This document shows positions 6,850 through 46,576 of a stretch of 64,000 bases of DNA, piece by piece. The translations under genes and the position numbers were made by a program. Positions within the stretch are counted from its first letter, which is position 1; every line of letters starts with the position of its first letter. The notes beneath the pieces are model-generated. The model was not told the DNA's origin. It made no database searches and worked only from the letters and a program-made list of their open reading frames with translations. Source of the stretch: Sinorhizobium sojae CCBAU 05684 (GTDB taxonomy: Bacteria > Pseudomonadota > Alphaproteobacteria > Rhizobiales > Rhizobiaceae); the NCBI RefSeq assembly GCF_002288525.1, contig NZ_CP023067.1, positions 2,108,001-2,172,000 on the forward strand, given 5' to 3'.

Positions 6850-8208
6850 ATGGACATCCTGATTCTCGGCGCGACCGGCTTCATCGGCTCCGCCATCGCC
6901 AGCAAGCTCGCGGAAGACGGCCACCGGGTCACCGGCCTTGGCCGCGATCCCGCGCGCGCCGCACGGAAGATGCCACAGCTTCAATGGCTGAGGGCGGATC
7001 TCGCACGTCTCACACGAAGCGCCGACTGGCGCGAGATACTTGCCGGCCACGAGGTGGTCGTCAACTGTGCCGGCGCGCTGCAGGACGGCCTTGCCGATGA
7101 CCTCGTCGCGGCACAGGAACGGGCGATGCTGGCGCTCTACGAGGCCGCGCGCAACTGCCGGCTCAAGCTTGTCGTTCAGGTCTCCGCCGACACGGAGAGT
7201 TCAGGGCGCGACCTTCCCTTTCTGGCCACGAAGCGAAAGGCGGATGCGGCACTCGCCGCAAGCGGCCTTCCTTACGTGATCTTGCGGCCGGCACTGGTGC
7301 TCGGACGCAATGCCCATGGCGGTTCGGCGCTGCTCAGAGCGCTTGCCGCCCTGCCCTTCGCCATCCCGCTCGTTCATGGGGCAAGCCCGGTCGCAACGGT
7401 CGCGCTCGATAATGTTGGAGATGCCGTAAGCAAGGCCATCGACGGCACGTTCCCGGCCGGGAGCGATCTTGTGCTTGGCCACGGCGACAGCCTGACCTTG
7501 CAGGAACTCGTCCTCCTTCATCGCCGCTGGCTGGGCCTGCGGCCGGCGTCTGCAATCCCGCTGCCGGTTGGCCTTGCGCGACCAGTAACATGGCTCGCAG
7601 ATCTGGCCGGCAGGCTCGGCTGGCGCTCGCCACTCAGATCGACCGCCATGGCGGTCATGTCCGGCGGAGTAAAAGTGCGCATCGGCCCGCAAATCGGAAC
7701 CGATTTGCGGGGAGCTCGATGCGCAAATTCAAAGAGTAGCGATCTTTGCGCGTCTGAAAAGACGCGTGGCGCCGTAGAGCTGCAGTCAGCGGCCGAAATG
7801 CTCGATGCCGCTCCGTCGGGCGTTCAGGATCTCTGGTTTGCGCGGCTCTATCTATTGAAGCCGCTGATCATCGGCACTCTGTCGATTTTTTGGCTGCTCT
7901 CTGGCGTCCTGCCTTTCCTCGCCTTCGATGCGGCGCGGAGCCACTTCGCCGCCTTGCTGCCGCCGCCATTCGCAGGCCTCATGACCCTCGCGGCCTGTCT
8001 TGCGGATGTCGCACTCGGTCTTGCCGTGCTCGTACAACCGTGGGCGAAGCGCGCGCTCATCGGAATGCTATGCCTGACGCTTGCCTATCTGGCGGCCGCG
8101 ACCCTTGCCGAGCCCGGGCTCTGGCTCGATCCGCTCGGGCCGCTCGTGAAGGTATTCCCGTCGATCCTGCTGACCCTCGTCGCTCTCGCCATACTGGATG
8201 AACGCTGA
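6850..8208 (+). CDS. NAD-epimerase with DoxX-like C-terminus and translated RIME
   Basis: The 452-residue protein begins with a Rossmann fold (GATGFIG at 7-13) and follows the atypical SDR/NmrA-like pattern to about residue 275. From about 330 to the end it has four hydrophobic segments of DoxX-like type, so it is probably a membrane-anchored NAD(P)-binding protein. Residues 276-309 (VRIGPQIGTDLRGARC to TRGA) are not part of the family; they are the translation of a RIME repeat at 7675-7777 lying in frame between the two domains. The ATG at 6850 was chosen because MDILILGATG is the family start. Its TGA overlaps the next gene's ATG by one base. Substrate unknown. Confidence 0.82.
   Translation: MDILILGATGFIGSAIASKLAEDGHRVTGLGRDPARAARKMPQLQWLRADLARLTRSADWREILAGHEVVVNCAGALQDGLADDLVAAQERAMLALYEAARNCRLKLVVQVSADTESSGRDLPFLATKRKADAALAASGLPYVILRPALVLGRNAHGGSALLRALAALPFAIPLVHGASPVATVALDNVGDAVSKAIDGTFPAGSDLVLGHGDSLTLQELVLLHRRWLGLRPASAIPLPVGLARPVTWLADLAGRLGWRSPLRSTAMAVMSGGVKVRIGPQIGTDLRGARCANSKSSDLCASEKTRGAVELQSAAEMLDAAPSGVQDLWFARLYLLKPLIIGTLSIFWLLSGVLPFLAFDAARSHFAALLPPPFAGLMTLAACLADVALGLAVLVQPWAKRALIGMLCLTLAYLAAATLAEPGLWLDPLGPLVKVFPSILLTLVALAILDER
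7675..7777 (-). repeat. RIME element inside a coding sequence
   Basis: This copy matches intergenic RIMEs elsewhere in the window: CGCATCGGCCC, the AAATCGG/CCGATTT stem, GCTCGATGCGCA, then a TTTGCGCGTC-TGAAAA-GACGCG palindrome. It lies wholly within the epimerase gene and keeps its frame. Where other copies begin TAG CGC ATC, this one reads GTG CGC ATC, so no stop arises. Confidence 0.85.
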
Positions 8209-29046: not shown

Positions 29047-29143
29047 GCCGTGCGTCCTTACGGACGCACAAAGGACGCTGTAGGCCTTTGAATCTACGCA
29101 TCGTGCTTTCCGAAAATCGGGTTCGATTTTCGGGCCGATGCGC
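29046..29143 (+). repeat. RIME element, complete
   Basis: Both palindromes are present: GTGCGTCC-TTAC-GGACGCAC and CGAAAATCGGGTTCGATTTTCG, ending GGCCGATGCGCC. It lies between the DUF4169 and ribbon-helix-helix genes, so a likely common transcript would carry two RNA hairpins. Confidence 0.85.
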
Positions 29144-29240
29144 CAAGCCGCCCGTCCCGAAATGCGATTCTGCAGCAAGGACTTGGCTCCGCTTCCGGAA
29201 TCGGGTTGCGAAGAACTTGAATCAACCTGTGAGGCAAGGA

Positions 29241-29584: not shown

Positions 29585-29697
29585 ATCACGATGATTTTAA
29601 GGTCGGATCGACCTAAAATCATAAACGTGATCGATTCTAGGAAGTTAGCGCGGGCTGCGGGCGGAAAACCGCGCACAATTTTCCTCATCCCGCGCTT
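29585..29697. repeat. Composite palindrome, full form
   Basis: The left unit is ATCACGATGATTTTAAGGTC with its complement ACCTAAAATCATAAACGTGAT. The right unit is AGCGCGGG...GGCGGAAAACCG...TTTTCCTCAT-CCCGCGCT. A shortened copy occurs at 46493-46562. It lies just after the asmA stop codon on the other strand and could end that transcript. Confidence 0.7.
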
Positions 29698-29700
29698 GCT

Positions 29701-46492: not shown

Positions 46493-46562
46493 CACGATGA
46501 TTTTAAGAAGTTAGCGCGGGATGCGGGCGGAAAACCGGGCACAGTTTTCCTCAACCCGCGCT
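46493..46562. repeat. Composite palindrome, shortened form
   Basis: ACGATGATTTTAAG is joined directly to AAGTTAGCGCGGGATGCGGG and its complement CAACCCGCGCTA. Compared with 29585-29697, the internal part between ATTTTAAG and GAAGTTAGCG is missing. It begins at the stop codon of the diguanylate cyclase gene. Confidence 0.7.
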
Positions 46563-46576
46563 AGCGGCGCGAGAGC

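Follow-up and report, generated by a model that had tools for sequence, protein, structure and literature searches.

A copy of the palindromic repeat RIME lies in frame, as predicted coding sequence, inside a gene of Sinorhizobium sojae CCBAU 05684 that encodes an epimerase-like protein of the SDR type with a DoxX-like membrane domain at its C terminus. The presence of the repeat in this gene is real and not a chance resemblance, and the copy is the only convincing intragenic, in-frame RIME among the 219 matches found in the genome. We are fairly confident that the repeat was inserted into the loose linker between the SDR and DoxX domains, that a deletion at the left junction restored the reading frame, and that the resulting peptide is tolerated without a specific function. 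The acronym stands for Rhizobium-specific intergenic mosaic element (Osteras, Stanley and Finan 1995). We take the repeat to be RIME; the sequence match is to a repeat family of the same genome and not to a published RIME sequence. The window, that is, the whole 64,000-nt stretch of DNA analysed here, spans positions 2,108,001-2,172,000 of a 3.67-Mb contig in a 6.09-Mb genome, and the features that bear on the argument are collected in Table 1.

Table 1. Host gene, protein domains and RIME features (positions are those of the window)
Feature	Positions	Strand	Evidence
Host gene, SDR/NAD-dependent epimerase-like with C-terminal DoxX-like membrane domain	6850-8208	+	ORF of 452 aa, stop included; Pfam; orthologues
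NAD(P)-binding Rossmann domain, residues 7-151	6868-7302	+	PF13460 (NAD_binding_10), E 2.4e-17
GT in place of the left TA of most other copies; GTG replaces the TAG stop	7675-7676	+	Alignment of copies
Left palindrome, long hairpin	7676-7725	+	Fold, z -4.7 for 7670-7782
RIME core of 98 nt, against 101 nt in the consensus, in frame with the host ORF	7677-7774	+	nhmmer, 97 bits; alignment to consensus
Right palindrome	7749-7766	+	Fold
Right TA, kept	7775-7776	+	Junction sequence
DoxX-like membrane domain, residues 346-442, in the frame of the SDR domain	7885-8175	+	PF13781 (DoxX_3), E 8.3e-17; dN/dS about 0.2

The original prediction placed a RIME in frame between the Rossmann and DoxX-like domains, with the order and palindromes of the intergenic copies and with GTG at the codon that reads TAG elsewhere, and all of this is borne out. 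A DNA profile made from 30 RIME copies of this genome, including the one under study, matches positions 7676-7776 over model positions 3-106 of 106 (97 bits, E 3e-28), and the open reading frame runs without a stop or frameshift between the SDR and DoxX domains. When the window copy itself was the query, 39 other places were found at 80-89% identity (40 scored of 296 candidates), namely, 83-89% for the next 29 copies and 80-86% for ten more. Both palindromes are present in the same order as in the other copies (fold -53.7 kcal/mol, z -4.7). The RIME core, together with the flanking codons GTG (7675-7677) and GTA (7774-7776), corresponds to residues 276-309; the left junction reads GT-GCGC, and the codon that is GTG here is TAG in 59 of the 110 near-complete copies. 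Compared with the 101-nt consensus core, the window copy carries 8 substitutions and one 3-nt deletion. As read from the consensus alignment, five of the substitutions are nonsynonymous and three synonymous, and no sign of selection on the RIME-coded peptide is apparent at the sequence level; the left stem has one compensatory change, A-T to C-G, which by our estimate is within chance for eight substitutions. No Pfam family fits the RIME peptides, and an NCBIfam match of these peptides to burhizin (E 0.04, 13.8 bits vs a cut-off of 45) was dismissed as chance. Over the repeat, at window positions 7663-7736, there is also a sub-threshold Rfam match to the Brucella sRNA BASRCI27 (20.8 bits vs a cut-off of 59.8, E 0.013).

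The domains on both sides of the repeat resemble those of an ordinary functional protein in their rates of substitution. Compared with five Sinorhizobium/Ensifer orthologues, the SDR part, which is also matched by PF01370 (Epimerase) over residues 3-154, shows dN of 0.15-0.17 and dS of 0.69-0.89, and the DoxX part dN of 0.14-0.17 and dS of 0.77-0.84. Judging from these alignments, the two domains that flank the repeat both appear to be under constraint (dN/dS about 0.2), the DoxX domain after the RIME as much as the SDR domain before it, and part of this constraint may be older than the insertion. An AlphaFold2 model, built on an alignment with 53 of the 80 orthologues described below, has a mean pLDDT of 88; the RIME-coded residues 281-294 and 296-303 fall below 50, as do residues 76-81 in another part of the protein. 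The RIME-coded peptide, predicted to be disordered, is most likely a disordered extension of the linker, and the expectation that the insertion lengthens a linker agrees with this model. The Foldseek neighbours of the model, among 50 matches listed, are mainly SDR/epimerase proteins and complex I subunits. A paralogue of the SDR-DoxX protein, 39% identical, is encoded on the second contig of the same genome (G000:C2:36530-37810), where its open frame spans 428 codons.

The comparison with orthologues by which the original prediction was to be checked gave a uniform answer: RIME is absent from all 80 aligned orthologues (the best 80 of 122 confirmed named loci from a search of the genome collection, aligned in one orientation), the closest of which come from Sinorhizobium/Ensifer, Mesorhizobium and Rhizobium. 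These proteins are 421-431 residues long, and the five closest Sinorhizobium/Ensifer ones 426-427, compared with 452 here; across the 80, the linker that follows the MSGG/MSEG motif is short and highly variable. The starts of VMSG and DLWF are 58 residues apart here and 32-33 apart in 11 of the 12 nearest orthologues; in the twelfth (L069), the anchor was not found. For the full-length orthologues within the genus, the alignment either stops at residues 274-279 and restarts at 308-311 or has a gap. A junction probe of 137 residues, searched at E 1e-20 against 33 genus genomes including that of the host, matched in full in the host genome, and in 3 of the 32 others it matched only as far as probe residues 55-59, where the RIME starts; at this threshold, a RIME at this junction was found in none of the 32. 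Together, the orthologues and the probe make the insertion lineage-specific among the genomes examined. An apparent RIME-plus-SDR match in genome G015 was discarded because its RIME stands behind the stop of another gene.

Comparison of filled and empty sites points to a simple rule for RIME insertion. In an ABC permease gene of Rhizobium plasmids, the empty site CAC-TAA-AGA (both of two relatives) corresponds to the filled site CAC-TAG-RIME-TAA-AGA, and in kdpB, GCC-TAA-GGCC (in one relative, the other having TGA) corresponds to GCC-TAG-RIME-TAA-GGCC. An acyl-CoA dehydrogenase gene (empty TAG) and an MBL-fold gene (empty TAA) follow the same rule, with nearby substitutions. TA is duplicated at four of the five polymorphic loci compared, the fifth, RidA, having TGA in both empty relatives. 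RIME appears, on the evidence of these pairs, to duplicate TA on insertion, its own first G making TAG when the TA starts a codon. Of 143 copies with a left edge, 80 have TA there, as do 128 of 175 at the right edge, the background frequency being 1.7%; TA is present on both sides in 55 of the 110 near-complete copies. Duplication of TA in paired filled and empty sites, as expected of TA-inserting MITEs of the IS630/Tc1-mariner type, was observed, exactly so at the ABC permease and kdpB loci, and RIME is most likely a non-autonomous, TA-inserting palindromic element. Among the 55 copies with two TAs, 21 add 103 nt, and the added length leaves a remainder of 1, 0 and 2 on division by three in 28, 18 and 9 copies, respectively. 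With 103 nt as the most frequent length, the commonest insertion into a gene shifts the frame by +1 and, where the TA begins a codon, ends translation immediately. At window positions 29633-29699 and 46499-46565 there is another repeat, of 67 nt and 90% alike between the two places, which adjoins RIME copies at both and is possibly a companion or part of a composite element.

The window copy has to be reconciled with this rule. The linker is 25 codons longer here than in most close orthologues; given a core of 98 nt, the host part of the linker is then 23 nt short. Under the scenario that we prefer, RIME would have been inserted into the linker-coding part between the SDR and DoxX domains, where the original insertion would have both introduced a stop and shifted the frame; the loss of some 25 nt at the left junction in one event, comprising the left TA and about 23 nt of the linker, would then have removed the stop and restored the frame, so that the gene ended up 25 codons longer. 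The extra peptide, most likely devoid of a specific function, would be tolerated because it falls in an unstructured linker whose sequence varies greatly. We infer the deletion from length and frame, no sister genome with the empty site having been found. Alternatively, the left copy of the target could be the TA at 7670-7671, five bases upstream, which would make the insertion 105 nt long and in frame from the start. In principle, such an insertion needs no special event, given that 18 of the 55 two-TA copies are of a length divisible by three, but it implies an ancestral linker about ten codons shorter than those of the close orthologues. The RIME in this gene looks like a rare accident.

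Two readings deny that the gene, with its repeat, yields one functional protein, and we regard both as unlikely. The gene could be decaying, with the RIME marking a neutral or broken allele. The host gene is indeed patchy in the genus, fragments in two genus members (G002:C1:2867731-2868054 and G024:C150:192-509) suggest repeated loss, and the paralogue on the second contig is a further point in favour of decay, as is a slight excess of dN to seven Mesorhizobium sequences over that of five other Sinorhizobium/Ensifer proteins in both domains (0.198 vs 0.170-0.194 in one domain and 0.187 vs 0.158-0.182 in the other). Such decay is, however, hard to square with 452 codons free of stops and frameshifts and with a dN/dS of about 0.2 on both sides of the repeat. 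Marginally less probable still, in our estimation, is that the gene is split in practice, translation halting at the hairpin or a second start giving rise to a separate DoxX protein: the hairpin in the message is very stable and an in-frame ATG lies at 7798, ahead of the DoxX domain, but no stop separates the domains, no clear ribosome-binding site precedes 7798 by eye, and the orthologues are single proteins.

A broader claim of the original prediction was that RIMEs can encode a peptide generally, as do the palindromic elements of Rickettsia, and this did not hold up. RIME positions were pooled from four genome searches, each of which scored or listed part of its candidates, so that more copies are possible; at least 219 distinct matches were obtained, 138 of them near full length, and with five pairs overlapping on opposite strands they represent about 214 places. 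Whether the flanks are coding was judged by a periodic Markov score over 180 nt and 300 nt, single-codon scores having failed to separate coding from non-coding sequence. One open frame that scored best on both sides at both flank lengths was present in three matches, the window copy, L238 and L152. The latter two were rejected: in L238, the RIME (about 36-70 of the open frame) precedes the probable ATG of a TPR protein with its Pfam domain at 101-293, and both flanks of L152 score far below non-coding. Eight other matches passed with the 180-nt flanks alone and two with the 300-nt flanks alone. The best of these weaker candidates, L232, has no Pfam match, and, of the 28 genus genomes that match the stretch following its RIME, several have relatives of that stretch with stops or a broken frame, so that its open frame behaves as a shadow frame would, which suggests but does not prove that it is one. 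In L250 and in L019, the latter taken from the single-codon list, which presumably correspond to adenylate cyclase and mfd, respectively, the RIME is upstream of the probable start; L174, L276, L023, L179 and L285 do not look genic by eye; and L178, L204 and the match at window positions 29047-29145 were rejected on low scores alone. None of 24 loci with long open frames from other genus genomes, among the matches listed, has one open coding frame on both sides; for two of these, L333 and L343, the coding flanks share a strand and differ in frame.

The idea that RIME is a general coding module, its frame kept open by selection as proposed for the Rickettsia palindromic elements, draws on the open frames of the repeat itself. 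The original prediction that the frame used here is open in most complete copies is correct in part: past the leading CTAG, the RIGPKI..SDLCASEKTRG frame is open in 75 of the 110 near-complete copies, but with the leading codon included it is open in only 28, and a reverse frame, LQRRASF.., is open in 77 of the 110. The consensus core has three of its six frames open, which is the commonest value in 2000 dinucleotide shuffles; open frames being no more numerous than in shuffled sequence, they look like a by-product of composition. Set against this idea, too, are the single convincing case among the 219 genome matches, the absence of any among the 24 loci from other genus genomes, the commonest insertion shifting the frame by +1, and the left end often supplying a stop. 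We consider a general coding role highly improbable.

The ends of RIMEs often coincide with the ends of genes. In plasmid records, 11 distinct annotated genes overlapping a RIME match were compared, from a longer list of rows with features that also has, for example, H169, H242, H281 and H288. All 11 end exactly at the RIME end with TAG, ten of them at the left end; the remaining one (IS481) does so at the right end, in a copy of variant form. Many of the plasmid matches listed have no feature beneath them (54 of 60 in one listing, with 5 more lacking annotation). One plasmid with a RIME match, CP070278.1 (246,192 bp), is labelled Dysgonomonadaceae bacterium zrk40 and is nearly equal in length to the Martelella lutilitoris plasmid NZ_CP066788.1 (246,197 bp), both from a cold seep, which makes the organism label doubtful. 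Among the 143 copies in the S. sojae genome that retain the left end, the left flank is unclear in 89, coding on the other strand in 21 and clearly coding on the same strand in 33, and in 28 of these 33 the first stop of the RIME is the stop of the gene. In a test free of any coding model, 32 of the 74 copies with a stop there have an open frame of 100 codons or more upstream, in the frame of the stop, compared with 6 and 11 of 74 for the other two frames and 221 of 1831 (12%) for other TAG/TAA sites. Left RIME ends likewise coincide with the stop of the upstream gene at L301:1501-1606, L302:2501-2606 and L304:1501-1607.

We lean towards the view that, in GC-rich rhizobial genomes, RIME is often found in host stop codons, rewriting TAA or TAG to its own TAG and becoming a ready-made hairpin 3' UTR, and that the gene in the window is an exceptional escape in which loss of the stop turned the repeat into protein. 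Insertion inside a stop codon is harmless, and purifying selection can account for the pattern; it may also come from a preference of the transposition machinery. If this view is correct, the RIME family offers a natural experiment in the conversion of a 3'-end element with a stop into coding sequence. The TA/TAG rule accounts for the exact coincidence of gene end and RIME in a number of rhizobial genes, and with it the word intergenic in the name of the element becomes a consequence, open to test, of the choice of target and of the reading frame. For annotation, the warning cuts both ways: RIME ends supply stop codons, and an open reading frame that runs across a RIME may nonetheless belong to a genuine gene.

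A literature search covering mostly material outside subscription papers, with the original 1995 article known through citation, brought up neither an in-frame RIME nor TA duplication by RIME, in line with the statement in the original prediction that no coding RIME was known. Relative to the literature searched, the window copy is the first in-frame RIME, and its rarity has an explanation in the TA target, the commonest length of 103 bp and the possible stop. In PMC2573895 and PMC2245857, RIMEs are treated as intergenic repeats, and the 1995 paper is cited in PMC2873474, PMC1273637, PMC3687685 and PMC10459465. The family studied here is likewise a dispersed palindromic repeat of Rhizobiaceae, but the window copy differs from the RIMEs described in those texts in being intragenic and in frame, with the left TA/TAG lost.

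Among other systems, the closest parallel is with the Rickettsia palindromic elements (RPEs), which also lie in frame in conserved protein genes and are absent from homologues (Ogata 2000, reviewed in PMC2229807 and PMC10969869), with 19 reading frames affected in the first study (PMC2229807). Unlike RPEs, in-frame RIME amounts to 1 of 219 matches and does not recur in unrelated genes, and its commonest insertion shifts the frame and can carry a stop. REPs, according to the main text of PMC3733652, in which the word RIME does not occur, are present in many genomes and resemble RIME in that their termini (GTAG or CGTC tags) frequently provide neighbouring ORFs with a TAG stop, and some are intragenic; they are, however, 20-40 bp long, in contrast to about 100 bp with TA duplication for RIME. 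The ERIC/RU-1, YPAL/RU-2 and RU-3 repeats are MITE-like, contain open frames and take part in gene fusions at 24 annotated loci (Delihas 2007, PMC2759123), but they are enterobacterial, and their likeness to RIME is one of description. In-frame palindromic repeats are therefore already known from RPE, ERIC/RU and REP; what may be new is the TA target-site rule for RIME.
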